This document shows positions 2,706 to 8,317 of a stretch of 64,000 nt of DNA, piece after piece (position 1 is the stretch's first letter; every line of letters begins with the position of its first letter). The notes under the pieces were generated by a model. The model made no database searches. It was not told where the DNA came from and worked only from the letters and a program-made list of their open reading frames with translations. The translations under genes and the position numbers were made by a program. The stretch lies in NCBI GenBank assembly GCA_029762595.1, contig JARVGJ010000003.1:62001-126000 (forward strand), given 5' to 3'. The DNA comes from Methanolobus sp. Its GTDB lineage: Archaea; Halobacteriota; Methanosarcinia; Methanosarcinales; Methanosarcinaceae.

Positions 2706-3038
2706 TTAAAGGTGCTTTGGATCGACATTCTTCAGGAATGCCTCACCGCGTACTGTGATAACGTAAGTAGTGTCATCTTCTTTTTCAATGTATAGAGTAT
2801 CCACAAGCATATCAAGATCCAGTCTTGCCTGTACGTCATTAAGATCAAACTTGGTCTTGATCTCATCGAAAGTCATTTTACCTTCACCAAGGCTTTCAAC
2901 AATGTGCCTGCGAACAGGGTTCTGCATGGTCCTCAGGCCTGCTTTGTGGTCCTCTGTGGGATTCTCCTTAAGCTTTCCTTCTTTCTTGGCTTTCTCGTAC
3001 CATTCATCTCTTCTTATCTTCAGGTCATCGTCTGTCAT
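2706..3038 (-). CDS. Small winged-helix (ArsR-like) DNA-binding protein
   Basis: A 110-residue basic protein. Residues 35-105 read as a winged helix-turn-helix: a helix around NPVRRHIVESLGEG, MTFDEIKTKF then DLNDVQARLDLDMLVDTLYI as recognition region, and a beta wing DDTTYVITVRGEAFL. The first 35 residues are charged and helical (RRDEWYEKAKKEGK). It is monocistronic and points away from rpl40e, with which it shares the 3039-3250 upstream region. The specific target is unknown. No strong Shine-Dalgarno is visible, so the start rests on the fit of the N-terminus. Confidence 0.75.
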   Translation of the reverse strand: MTDDDLKIRRDEWYEKAKKEGKLKENPTEDHKAGLRTMQNPVRRHIVESLGEGKMTFDEIKTKFDLNDVQARLDLDMLVDTLYIEKEDDTTYVITVRGEAFLKNVDPKHL

Positions 3039-3250: not shown

Positions 3251-3397
3251 ATGGCAAGATTCCCAGAAGCTGAAAACAGGATACTGATCAAGAAGATCTG
3301 TATGGATTGCAATGCACGCAATGCAGCGCGTGCAACAAGATGCAGGAAATGCGGCAACAAAGACCTGCGTATGAAATCCAAGGAAACAAGAGGCTGA
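3251..3397 (+). CDS. rpl40e: Large-subunit ribosomal protein L40e
   Basis: A 48-residue zinc-binding ribosomal protein. It has four cysteines in two pairs (CMDC and CRKC) 15 residues apart, in a very basic background. This matches archaeal L40e, which corresponds to the C-terminal half of eukaryotic ubiquitin-L40 fusions. The ATG follows AAGGTGAAAAATA, a good Shine-Dalgarno with suitable spacing. The stop is 8 bases before the GGGP synthase start, indicating an operon. An AT-rich promoter-like stretch (TAATATTTATACATTAAAAC) lies near 3102-3121. Confidence 0.93.
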
Positions 3398-4208: not shown

Positions 4209-5930
4209 ATGCTTGAAGTATGCAATATCATAAAGGATTATGAGTTTAACAATGAAACAAAAAGAATTCTAGACAATATAAGTTTCAATGTTGCAGACAG
4301 TGAGATCCTTGGGATCACTGGAAAAAGCGGAAGTGGCAAGACCACAATATTGAAGATCCTGAGAGGAATGGAAGATTTTGATTCCGGCTACTTCATACTC
4401 GATGGAGAAAAAATAGAACCTGGCGCTGAAAAGAACAAGCTCAGATTCCTTGCATATAACAGTGCAATACACCTACAGCGCAATTTCGGACTCTGGAACG
4501 GCCCGGCAGTTGAGAATATAATCCGAAGACTCAATTTCCTTGCAGAGGGACATGAAGGATTGCCTGAACCTGACGCTTCAAACTACGATGAACTTTATGA
4601 TAAGGCCATGTATTACATGCGCCTTGTGCGCCTGGATAACAAGGCGCAGCATTCTTCTAATCTGTTAAGCGGCGGTGAGAAGCAAAGGCTTATACTTGCA
4701 CGCCAGCTTGCAGCAAAACCGCGACTTCTGCTCCTTGACGAACCTGTTACAATGACCGACCCCGGCACAAAACAGGAAATGCTTGATGTTATCAGGGACA
4801 TAAAAAAAGAGCTTAACATTCCGATAATCGTCGTTTCACACCTTCCAGAGATCCACCTATACCTTGCAGACAGAGTGGCATACCTGGAAGACGGAAGGAT
4901 AATCGAGACCGGAGAAACTGAAAAGGTGCTGAAACACTTCCTGAAAGACCTCAATGAACAGGTCCCTCTTCCCGAAGTGGACCAAAGGAGACCAATAATA
5001 AAAGTAAGAGGGCTTTCTAACCGTTTTGTACTCCTAAGGGTTGGTGAAGTACTGAAATTCGAAGATATTTCGCTTGATATAAACAAAGGTGAGATAACAG
5101 CATTTATCGGACCTTCAGGTTCCGGGAAGACAACACTGCTTAAGATGATAGAGGGACTAAGGCTGCCTAAAGAAGGAGAAATCAGCTACCTGCACGAAGG
5201 AAAATGGCTCAATATCGTAGATTTTACAACACGGCGCCTGGACCTGCGCAGAAAGATGAGTATCATGCATCAGGAATTCACACTTTCCCCGCACTCCACC
5301 ATCCGAGATCAACTTGCATTCAAATTACGCCTGAAGGGAGAAGGGTCCCTTGAATATGCAAGGAATAAAGCCCGTGGACTTGGCATATCAGATGAGGCAC
5401 TTGATACACTGTACAAGCTCACCGAAGTTGCAGAGGAGGAAAAGGATAAGACACTGAAGGAAATGAACCTTTCAGTTGACATCTACGCCAAACTTTTCCC
5501 CATGATCACAAAGGACGTAGTAGATGAACATGCTGCTAAGATCTTCAAAGCCCTTGACCTTCCAATGTCCGTGCTGGATAAGACCCCATACCAGATAAGT
5601 GGAGGAGAACATGTCAGGGCATATATTGCACTTGCACTTGTATCAAGCCCGGAGATATTGATGCTTGATGAACCCTTCGGTGACCTGGATCCCGTAACTC
5701 TCAGGGATGTCACAAACTCCCTGAAGAACATAAACAGGGAATTTGGCACTACAGTTGTATTTATAAGCCATCACACGGATTTTGTAAAAGAAGTTGCACA
5801 TCGGGCTATCCTTCTGGACAATGCAAGGATTATCATGGATGAAAGACCAGATAAAGCCTGTAAAAAACTAATCGAAATGGGGCATGCAAGATATCTTGAG
5901 CGTGATATCAGGGATTTGTCAGCCAAGTGA
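4209..5930 (+). CDS. Twin-domain ABC ATPase, methyl-coenzyme M reductase system component A2 family
   Basis: A 573-residue soluble protein with two ABC cassettes and no membrane segment. Cassette 1 has Walker A GKSGSGKTT (residues 38-46), signature LLSGGEKQR and Walker B LLLLDEPVT. Cassette 2 has GPSGSGKTT, QISGGEHVR and LMLDEPFGDLDP, with a long helical insertion before the signature. This layout matches AtwA/component A2 of methanogens, a protein described as taking part in ATP-dependent activation of methyl-CoM reductase. Methanosarcinales carry several paralogues, so this copy may have another client. It follows GGGP synthase by 59 bases with its own site (GAGGAGGACTGGTTATG). An ABC transporter role is unlikely, as no permease is adjacent. 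Confidence 0.8.
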   Translation: MLEVCNIIKDYEFNNETKRILDNISFNVADSEILGITGKSGSGKTTILKILRGMEDFDSGYFILDGEKIEPGAEKNKLRFLAYNSAIHLQRNFGLWNGPAVENIIRRLNFLAEGHEGLPEPDASNYDELYDKAMYYMRLVRLDNKAQHSSNLLSGGEKQRLILARQLAAKPRLLLLDEPVTMTDPGTKQEMLDVIRDIKKELNIPIIVVSHLPEIHLYLADRVAYLEDGRIIETGETEKVLKHFLKDLNEQVPLPEVDQRRPIIKVRGLSNRFVLLRVGEVLKFEDISLDINKGEITAFIGPSGSGKTTLLKMIEGLRLPKEGEISYLHEGKWLNIVDFTTRRLDLRRKMSIMHQEFTLSPHSTIRDQLAFKLRLKGEGSLEYARNKARGLGISDEALDTLYKLTEVAEEEKDKTLKEMNLSVDIYAKLFPMITKDVVDEHAAKIFKALDLPMSVLDKTPYQISGGEHVRAYIALALVSSPEILMLDEPFGDLDPVTLRDVTNSLKNINREFGTTVVFISHHTDFVKEVAHRAILLDNARIIMDERPDKACKKLIEMGHARYLERDIRDLSAK

Positions 5931-6107: not shown

Positions 6108-6452
6108 ATGAAAGATGATGATTTTTCAGAAGTAATGAGAAAGGGAGCACTCTTTGGAATTGGCTTGTGGGCACTTACCGAAGAGAAGATACAGGACATT
6201 GCAGATGAGCTAATAGAGAACGGCGAGATCAAGAAGGAAGAAGGTAAGAGATTTGTTCGTGAGATAATAGAAGAGCAAAAAAAACAGAAAGAAGATATGG
6301 AGAGTAAGATATCTACAAGGATCCACGAAACCTTCGGCAAGGCAGACATAGCAACTAAAGAAGAAGTAAAAGAGCTAAAGGATATCATAAGGCAGCTGGA
6401 AGAGAAAATAGACAAGCTTTCTGCCTCTGATGACAGTGAAAAGGAGGTATGA
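6108..6452 (+). CDS. Phasin-like coiled-coil protein
   Basis: A 114-residue charged helical protein. Residues 9-55 (RKGALFGIGLWALTEEKIQD, then EEGKRFVREI) resemble the N-terminal domain of polyhydroxyalkanoate granule-associated (phasin-type, COG3937-like) proteins: a short hydrophobic patch, then an amphipathic helix. The C-terminal part (EEVKELKDIIRQLEEKIDKL) is a heptad coiled coil. The same architecture is repeated as the C-terminal domain of the next gene. A strong site (GTGGAGGTTTAAAATG) sets the start. No PHA synthase or depolymerase is near, so granule binding is not implied by context. It is more likely a surface-coating or scaffold protein of unknown target. Confidence 0.75.
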   Translation: MKDDDFSEVMRKGALFGIGLWALTEEKIQDIADELIENGEIKKEEGKRFVREIIEEQKKQKEDMESKISTRIHETFGKADIATKEEVKELKDIIRQLEEKIDKLSASDDSEKEV

Positions 6453-6469
6453 TCCCACACGGTGGGATC
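6451..6469 (+). terminator. Perfect hairpin at the end of the phasin-like gene
   Basis: GATCCCAC and GTGGGATC form 8-bp arms around a 3-base loop, overlapping the stop codon, followed by TGCTTCTTT. A second perfect hairpin (ATCCGG-CAAA-CCGGAT, 6492-6507) sits just before the next reading frame. The pair could attenuate or process the message between the two genes instead of fully terminating it. Confidence 0.5.
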
Positions 6470-6543
6470 TGCTTCTTTAAGGTCTTTCAGGATCCGGCAA
6501 ACCGGATAATATGGGAGATATACAGAAAGAAAGGAATCGGCAT

Positions 6544-7392
6544 ATGTTCCAAAAGAATGAGTGGAGTGTTTCACCTTCAATACCATGTTCAGGTGACATA
6601 CTGGACATCACAGGCAGAGCAGGGCCTGCTGAAGACATATATATGCAGGTCTCTTTCACAATGATGATACCGGTTATTGATGGTGAATATAGCCATGTTT
6701 TCGAAAATATAAGGATACCGGGTGGTAAGAATAGCTTTCTGGTAAGGACCCGGAAAGTGAGGGACCTGAGTTTTATAGTCCGGATGTTTGTAGACTTTAA
6801 ACGTACTTTTGAGGAAAATGAAGGAGTTGCCGAATTCTTCGAAAAGGATGCACCATCAGGTAGTTATGAGATAGTAATAAAAGGAAATGCTTACCAGGGA
6901 GAAGACGAGGTAAGAGCTGATTTTGTTGCAACACAGACCATCAGATCAGACAGTGACGGTAACTTCCATATTAAATACAATACCACATCCCTTCCAGAAG
7001 GGGAGTTTATAGTCAAGATAGGCGATAATGAAAAGATGATAACTTTAATGCCTCCAAGATCACGGGTTAAAAAACAAAGCAATATTGAAAAACTGATGGA
7101 TAAAGGTTTTCTATTTGGATTCGGTCTGTTGGGACTTGCAGAGGAAAGGATGGAGGAGATTACAGCTGACCTTATAGGCAATATAGAGGAAAAGAAAAGA
7201 GAAGGGAAACAATTCATCACAGAGGTCTCTGAAAGGCAGAAGCAAGATATGAAAAGAGCGATCCATTCTGATCTTAACGGAAGCTTGGACAGGATAGATC
7301 TTGCAAGCAAGGAAGATGTAAAAGAACTAATGGATACTGTCAAGCGATTATCAGAGAAGATAGATAGGTTAAACAATGAAAAACATCCGTAA
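6544..7392 (+). CDS. Two-domain protein: beta-rich domain fused to phasin-like coiled coil
   Basis: A protein of 282 residues from ATG 6544 (AAAGGA eight bases upstream); an in-frame ATG at 6511 would add 11 residues but lacks a site. Residues 1-165 form a beta-rich domain (PCSGDILDITGRAGP, SHVFENIRIPGGKNSF, LPEGEFIVKIGDNEK) with no signal peptide. Residues about 180-280 repeat the phasin-like domain of the upstream gene (DKGFLFGFGLLGLAEERMEE, EGKQFITEVSERQK, and a coiled coil ending VKRLSEKIDRL). The beta domain is repeated alone in the next gene. So the three genes are built from two modules as B, A+B and A. Function is not recognised; a cytoplasmic structural or lipid/particle-associated role is an inference. 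Confidence 0.8.
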   Translation: MFQKNEWSVSPSIPCSGDILDITGRAGPAEDIYMQVSFTMMIPVIDGEYSHVFENIRIPGGKNSFLVRTRKVRDLSFIVRMFVDFKRTFEENEGVAEFFEKDAPSGSYEIVIKGNAYQGEDEVRADFVATQTIRSDSDGNFHIKYNTTSLPEGEFIVKIGDNEKMITLMPPRSRVKKQSNIEKLMDKGFLFGFGLLGLAEERMEEITADLIGNIEEKKREGKQFITEVSERQKQDMKRAIHSDLNGSLDRIDLASKEDVKELMDTVKRLSEKIDRLNNEKHP

Positions 7393-7414
7393 AAAGAAAA
7401 TATAAAGTTTAGGG

Positions 7415-8023
7415 GTGCTAATAATTAGCAAAGAGAAAAATATAGTTTTAACTGTCTCTAAAAGTATATATTCATTGATACACAGACAGAATGAAGAGAA
7501 TCCCGATGCTTCAGTGGACGACTGGGAAATACATCCACCTTCTCCGTGCCCGGGAGATATACTTGATATTGTTGGCAGAACAGATCCCGGGGAGAATATA
7601 GGCATGAGGGTGTCATTTAGCATCAGCATACCTGTAGTTGACAATGAATATAGCCATGTCTTTGATAACATCAAAATACCAGGTGGAAGCAATAGTTTTT
7701 TTGTAAGGTCACAAAAAGTGAAGGACCTTAACTTTATAGTCCGCATGTTCGTAGATTTTAAGAGAAGTTTTGAGGCGGATAATGGAATAGCTGAGTTCTT
7801 CGAAAAGAATGTGCCAGCGGGCAATTATGAGATAGTCGTACAGGGAACAGCACAGGAAGGAGAAAAAAACGTTAAAGCAGATTTCATTGCAACACAAACA
7901 ATAAAAGCAGACAATGAAGGCAAATTTACCCACAGATACGATACATGCTCTCTTCCGGAAGGCGAATTCACTGTAAAGATAGGCGATAAGGAGAAGAAAA
8001 TAGATCTGAAAAGTTCAAAATGA
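7415..8023 (+). CDS. Stand-alone copy of the beta-rich domain
   Basis: A 202-residue protein from a GTG start. Residues about 40-200 align throughout with the N-terminal domain of the preceding gene: PCPGDILDIVGRTDP, EYSHVFDNIKIPGG, FIVRMFVDFKRSFE, DFIATQTIKAD and LPEGEFTVKIGDKEK are shared nearly residue for residue. This indicates tandem duplication. The C-terminal phasin-like domain is absent. The GTG lies directly after AGGG, too close for a normal site, so the true start is uncertain; no ATG occurs upstream of the conserved domain. It starts 22 bases after the previous stop and is probably cotranscribed. No signal peptide or membrane segment is seen, and the function is unknown. Confidence 0.75.
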   Translation: MLIISKEKNIVLTVSKSIYSLIHRQNEENPDASVDDWEIHPPSPCPGDILDIVGRTDPGENIGMRVSFSISIPVVDNEYSHVFDNIKIPGGSNSFFVRSQKVKDLNFIVRMFVDFKRSFEADNGIAEFFEKNVPAGNYEIVVQGTAQEGEKNVKADFIATQTIKADNEGKFTHRYDTCSLPEGEFTVKIGDKEKKIDLKSSK

Positions 8024-8036
8024 AAAATAATAAGAA

Positions 8037-8060
8037 AAAGGGAAATATTAAATTCCCTTT
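8037..8060. terminator. Bidirectional hairpin between convergent genes
   Basis: AAAGGGAA and TTCCCTTT form perfect 8-bp arms around an 8-base AT loop. It lies between the convergent stops at 8023 and 8048, covering the stop of the minus-strand gene. Confidence 0.6.
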
Positions 8061-8317
8061 GAGACCATCAGTTTTATGAATTCTGTTGATTCCATAACAG
8101 GAGTGCTTTCGATTTTGCATATATCAGACCAGGGTATGTTGAACTCTGCATATGCCTTCTCATTTTCTGCTTCATAAAGGATGAAATATCTGCCCCCATT
8201 AAGGTCCATCCACTGGTTTACAATCTTAATACCTGCAGGTGGTTTTAGCTTTTTAAAGTGCTCAATTACCTTTTCACTGTCTTGTGGTTCCCATGTGCTT
8301 ATGTCGAAAAACAACAT
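8048..8317 (-). CDS. DUF3303-like small protein
   Basis: An 89-residue protein with an alpha/beta ferredoxin-like dimer pattern: MLFFDISTWEP, a helix DSEKVIEHFKKLKPPAG, strands IKIVNQWMDL and GRYFILYEAEN, and a helix STEFIKLMVSKG. This resembles DUF3303/EthD-type small proteins found in methanogens. The start is supported by GGAGTGAT five bases upstream. It is a single gene converging on the phasin-like cluster. The biochemical role is unknown. Confidence 0.7.
   Translation of the reverse strand: MLFFDISTWEPQDSEKVIEHFKKLKPPAGIKIVNQWMDLNGGRYFILYEAENEKAYAEFNIPWSDICKIESTPVMESTEFIKLMVSKGI

Follow-up and report, generated by a model that had tools for sequence, protein, structure and literature searches.

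The question raised by this locus is what a small coiled-coil protein, a beta-rich protein, and a fusion of the two do side by side in a methanogen. In the window (the whole stretch of 64,000 nucleotides analyzed here, from a Methanosarcinaceae genome placed in or beside the genus Methanolobus), three ORFs follow one another on the plus strand: P1 (6108..6452), a 114-aa phasin-like/UbiK-like protein characterized by a family profile and a predicted structure; P2 (6511..7392), a 293-aa fusion of an N-terminal beta domain (residues about 13 to 184; 6547..7062; located by BLAST and an AlphaFold2 model) to a second copy of the P-type coiled coil (residues about 188 to 293; 7072..7389; located by BLAST and a tree); and P3 (7415..8023), a 202-aa free beta domain with a GTG start and with neither a signal peptide nor a membrane anchor. 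A preliminary description had recognized this three-gene module of coiled coil, beta domain plus coiled coil, and beta domain, and all three ORFs are indeed present. We consider it fairly probable that P1 is a UbiJ/UbiK-like accessory scaffold for the UbiB protein encoded nearby and that the module is not a storage-granule coat.

The module contains two copies of each domain. The beta domains of P2 and P3 share 63% identity over 164 aa (BLAST; E = 4e-82), the coiled coils of P1 and P2 share 43% identity over 82 aa (E = 1e-17), and P1 and P3 show no similarity in pairwise BLAST. The earlier statement that the domain copies align over their full length needs qualification for the coiled coils, which align by BLAST over only about 80 of the 114 residues of P1; the hydrophobic N-terminal part can be matched only when the whole family is aligned. 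Because a second Methanolobus genome (G049, contig PXAV01000071.1) also has all three genes, fused ORF included, the fusion in P2 is not a sequencing slip. This arrangement was found only in these two genomes; about two dozen relatives retain the plain pair, and nearly all other Methanolobus genomes have one P gene (our name for the coiled-coil family) followed by one beta gene at the site, mostly 10 to 50 bp apart. In trees, the P2 coiled coil groups with P1 of the present genome and G049 (94/85), the two fusion beta domains group together (100/99), and so do the two free ones (100/97). Given this restriction of the fusion to two genomes and these groupings, the pair was duplicated in tandem in the ancestor of the present genome and G049, and the stop codon between the first beta copy and the second P copy was lost. 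The origin by duplication with fusion proposed in the preliminary description is thus borne out and can be specified as a tandem duplication of the P-beta pair. The copies have since diverged unequally: P1 of the present genome is 89% identical to its counterpart in G049, the fused coiled coil only 48%.

Two perfect hairpins on the plus strand between genes 1 and 2, one with an 8-bp stem overlapping the P1 stop codon (6451-6469) and one with a 6-bp stem before the P2 start (6492-6507), were also correctly noted at the outset. Their suggested role in controlling the relative expression of the two genes is unproven, since G049 retains the first (with a 7-bp stem, common only to the two fusion genomes) but not the second, and neither was seen in Methanolobus genomes without the duplication.

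The surroundings of the module are conserved across Methanolobus in the order gatA-gatB, geranylgeranylglyceryl phosphate (GGGP) synthase, AtwA-like ATPase, P1, P2, P3, DUF3303, UbiB, and NrpR. We take the first two genes to be gatA-gatB from their size, their order, and general knowledge. The PcrB-family GGGP synthase of isoprenoid membrane lipid synthesis (PF01884; 3307..4149, plus strand) was identified by profile match, and its true start is probably downstream of the annotated position 3307. Upstream of it, a winged-helix gene (2706-3038; PF14947-like, below the cut-off) encodes a single domain here, and its counterpart in other Methanolobus is a tandem double-domain protein of about 215 to 226 aa. 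The double ABC ATPase that follows (4209..5930, plus strand) is presumably AtwA-like, judging by domain content and general knowledge. Downstream of P3 lie a DUF3303 gene (PF11746; 8048..8317, minus strand), convergent with the beta gene, and a gene for a UbiB/ABC1 atypical kinase (PF03109; 8534..10213, plus strand), both identified by profile match, so that in Methanolobus a beta gene and the convergent DUF3303 gene separate P and ubiB. The UbiB protein scores 288 bits on PF03109, shares 29% identity with E. coli UbiB, and falls narrowly below the equivalog cut-off of TIGR01982 (463 versus 488 bits). Its sequence has the features expected of a UbiB: the ABC1 domain, a KxGQ motif (KLGQI) at residue 76, and a hydrophobic C terminus with putative helices. 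The earlier reading of the neighborhood as free of PHA genes had missed this ubiB gene and had also missed that, in distantly related archaea and bacteria, relatives of P immediately precede ubiB.

Those relatives were found by a scan of genome contigs with the P alignment, followed by profile searches; a scan with the full P2 protein gave no match, as patterns from one sequence were too strict. P is immediately 5' of ubiB at all eight P loci of the phylum Hydrothermarchaeota (several overlapping by 26 to 32 bp), in 4/4 genomes of a small second bacterial phylum, and at 15 of the 30 best loci in planctomycetes, including all of the top 11. The gaps in planctomycetes and the other bacterial phylum range from a few to about 75 bp, with one of 357 bp. 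When planctomycetes were approached from the UbiB side, 9 of 30 genuine ubiB genes had P 3 to 74 bp upstream. Across 57 loci, every one of the 17 P matches among 1,158 ORFs was directly before ubiB. The order AtwA-P-UbiB-NrpR was found in Methanococcoides and Methanohalophilus-like genomes, and ANME-3 genomes have the same order, with NrpR not seen. Because this gene order is common to distant archaea and bacteria and emerges from both directions of search, we regard the link as functional and not due to chance. A Nitrospinota match (L165), with no UbiB beside P and none found in that genome, counts mildly against the UbiB reading and was left out of this argument. The open-access papers searched, an incomplete literature, contain no mention of a phasin-UbiB link. 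Nor do the homologues occur only singly beside unrelated genes, a pattern that the preliminary description had named as speaking against a module: P and beta genes adjoin in Methanolobus, Methanohalobium, and Methanomethylovorans. Since P is present without a beta gene in other genera, the beta domain is an add-on.

The presence and absence of the two genes are partly concordant. P was found in 104/112 Methanosarcinaceae genomes. Six genomes of one genus (g6) have neither a full UbiB nor P (one has a borderline P match), and two genomes (G105 and G107) lack both UbiB type 1 and P, which their congeners (G106 and G110) both have; at one Methanolobus locus (L073, genome G041), P and ubiB are both gone and beta is kept. 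The main caution regarding the UbiB reading is that several species retain P after loss of ubiB. In several Methanolobus, ubiB has decayed to fragments and P is kept (L072 8741-8862, L111 7463-7740, L114 1828-1947, L070 6177-6705, and L108 6581-7109); the Methanomethylovorans locus retains P-beta-DUF3303 and lacks ubiB, and three genomes (G103, G082, and G006) have P with only the second UbiB type.

The P family resembles two kinds of known proteins. P1 has a helix containing a hydrophobic GxG segment at its N terminus and a coiled coil at its C terminus, according to a structure predicted with moderate confidence (pLDDT of 68). P proteins are like phasins (PF05597, TIGR01837, NF047773) in length, in helical makeup, and in a C-terminal motif of the type A-T-K/R-x-E/D-V-x-x-L, and all 25 family members match PF05597, TIGR01837, and the phasin-related NF047773 at E ≤ 0.01, whereas the Pfam BMFP (UbiK) family matches 14 of the 25. 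Matches of single members to the phasin, phasin-related, and UbiK/BMFP models are mostly below or near curated cut-offs. P1 itself misses those of the phasins (26.6 versus 28.8 bits for PF05597; 33.8 versus 94.7 bits for TIGR01837) and that of UbiK (25.3 versus 37.2 bits for PF04380; E = 0.014 for NF047835). E. coli UbiK scored 16.4 bits against the P profile, versus 8.9 for the best of 200 shuffles, and hhalign gave E = 2e-4 with a probability of only 48%, coiled coils being prone to spurious similarity. The best match in a PDB sequence search was no better than E = 0.14, and Foldseek with the P1 and P2 models returned nothing at E ≤ 0.001, only generic helices and beta-sandwiches, from which no function was drawn. 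A gas vesicle origin (GvpT/GvpP) was rejected, P1 scoring 19.8 versus 80 bits on NF041669. The present genome encodes two more P-like paralogues away from ubiB (L093, C3:57541-57843; L094, C54:34468-34758).

The closest functional parallel is with the ubiquinone system of E. coli. UbiJ-UbiK2 is a membrane-associated complex of a lipid-binding domain and paired C-terminal coiled coils: two UbiK chains associate with the coiled coil at the UbiJ C terminus and present the lipid-binding domain of UbiJ to the membrane (PMC9499169). Similarly, P1 appears to be a small amphipathic coiled-coil protein and P2 a globular domain followed by a C-terminal coiled coil. The gene position is also comparable: E. 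coli ubiJ sits directly before ubiB, with a 4-nt overlap, where P sits elsewhere. Linkage of P to ubiB is likewise a UbiK-type feature, ubiKBE adjoining in some Desulfobacterota (PMC13386864), although not a strict one, as E. coli ubiK is unlinked to ubiB. The differences are considerable. P2 has a beta-sandwich where UbiJ has an SCP2 lipid-binding domain, the coiled coils of P1 and P2 go back to a recent duplication, unlike those of UbiJ-UbiK2, and the host family uses methanophenazine, whereas the E. coli system serves ubiquinone. As P1 does not reach the UbiK family score, P2 has no profile match to UbiJ, and the sequence of the beta domain is not that of an SCP2 domain, we do not claim membership in either family; the likeness would be one of architecture and gene position.

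On this analogy, P1 would be a membrane-peripheral, oligomeric coiled-coil protein serving the UbiB-type kinase/ATPase encoded just downstream, its N-terminal helix touching the membrane and its C-terminal coiled coil oligomerizing and holding partners. Methanolobus and two other genera gained a cytoplasmic beta-sandwich protein, encoded between P and ubiB, and the tandem duplication with loss of the inner stop gave the present lineage its order of P, beta::P, and beta. P2 would use its coiled coil to pair with P1 and so bring one beta domain to the complex, much as UbiJ contributes the SCP2 domain of UbiJ-UbiK2. From gene order and architecture we infer that UbiB contacts and acts on the P1-P2 complex and that the cargo may be an isoprenoid lipid, either methanophenazine or another polyprenyl lipid. 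For Methanosarcina barkeri, Ubi-like genes have been suggested to yield methanophenazine (PMC6315138), and the gut-associated relatives Methanimicrococcus/Methanolapillus keep it (PMC11362671). If genus g6, lacking full UbiB and P, is that gut clade, P-UbiB cannot be essential for methanophenazine; because these presumed gut genera retain the carrier without UbiB or P, we downgraded methanophenazine as the specific cargo. More broadly, and more tentatively, the phasin-related proteins of many archaea and bacteria might be a general accessory subunit of UbiB kinases outside Proteobacteria, a counterpart of UbiK, with Methanolobus having gained a UbiJ-like second subunit by fusing its own to a cytoplasmic copy of a surface beta domain. 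UbiB/COQ8 kinases occur in all domains of life, and the way in which they act on isoprenoid lipids remains under debate; a small partner gene that is conserved in archaea and bacteria, and that has been misread as encoding a PHA phasin, would offer a direct handle on UbiB, and the Methanolobus fusion is a natural experiment suggesting which domains belong together.

Other explanations have to be weighed against an accessory role for UbiB. One is that the beta and DUF3303 genes are the functional unit and simply came to lie between P and ubiB, with the fusion as a neutral by-product of duplication. DUF3303 genes lie tail to tail with nonsecreted beta genes in the window (8048-8317) and at L077, L099, L100, and L101, with 12 to 43 bp between them; such pairs occupy unrelated sites in four genomes and are also found in other genera, so the two travel as a cassette. 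The P2 coiled coil also has a roughly 15-fold higher rate of evolution than P1 (branches of 0.9 to 1.0 versus 0.06). Against this, two genomes that have diverged (48 to 77% identity) both retain intact copies of the two fused domains, and P and beta are codirectional and mostly 10 to 50 bp apart in three genera, so that we regard this explanation as unlikely.

Within Methanosarcinaceae, P is as constant a neighbor of AtwA as of ubiB. P might thus serve the upstream AtwA-type ATPase in methyl-CoM reductase activation, the ubiB link being incidental in methanogens; AtwA is directly 5' of P in Methanolobus, Methanohalobium, Methanomethylovorans, Methanococcoides, Methanosalsum, and ANME-3, including where ubiB is gone or distant. 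This seems still less likely, as the P genes of Hydrothermarchaeota and planctomycetes adjoin ubiB with no AtwA beside them and Methanosarcina has P away from AtwA. Least likely, in our estimation, is that the proteins coat a lipid body or another particle in the manner of phasins, to which targets the preliminary description had added a filament. The uniform phasin matches of the family favor it, and plant ABC1K/UbiB kinases occur at lipid globules. Unlike phasins, P has its gene tied to ubiB, P1 falls under the phasin cut-offs, and PHA synthase (TIGR01836) was found in only 2 of the 112 genomes of the family, the present one (G000) not being among them; an insensitive search also saw no PhaC-like gene beside 34 P loci. 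A full-scoring class III PHA synthase (L265, G098:C114:4163-5188) occurs in one Methanosarcina genome and is otherwise almost absent from the family; it may reflect contamination or transfer.

The beta domain has a history of its own. In P2 it is predicted to be a beta-sandwich of 13 strands (AlphaFold2; pLDDT mostly 89 to 98), with no clear solved relative in Foldseek; no Pfam family covers it, and Big_7/Ig-like matches are weak. (A joint protein alignment of beta and coiled-coil sequences was dropped, as the coiled coils misaligned onto the beta domain.) Surface-anchored proteins of Methanosarcinaceae carry the same domain at roughly 32 to 42% identity to P2. Unlike the locus copies, they carry signal peptides and, in many cases, a membrane anchor at the C terminus: a signal-peptide-like stretch precedes the domain in 15 of the 16 wider-family copies listed, as well as in L097 and L098 (the exception, L342, may reflect start-site choice), and many surface copies end in a membrane helix. 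A third beta copy in the present genome (L341) is of this surface type. Signal peptides and membrane segments are missing from the beta copies of the P locus and from those that pair with DUF3303 elsewhere, and the surface copies form one clade (99/97). The locus proteins thus contain a surface domain of Methanosarcinaceae in a form free of membrane segments. Many free beta copies of the locus have an N-terminal segment of amphipathic appearance, as would befit contact with a membrane. The domain also occurs inside very large Methanosarcina proteins of 1,264 to 1,579 aa (L342 2570-6364 and L343 4161-8900).
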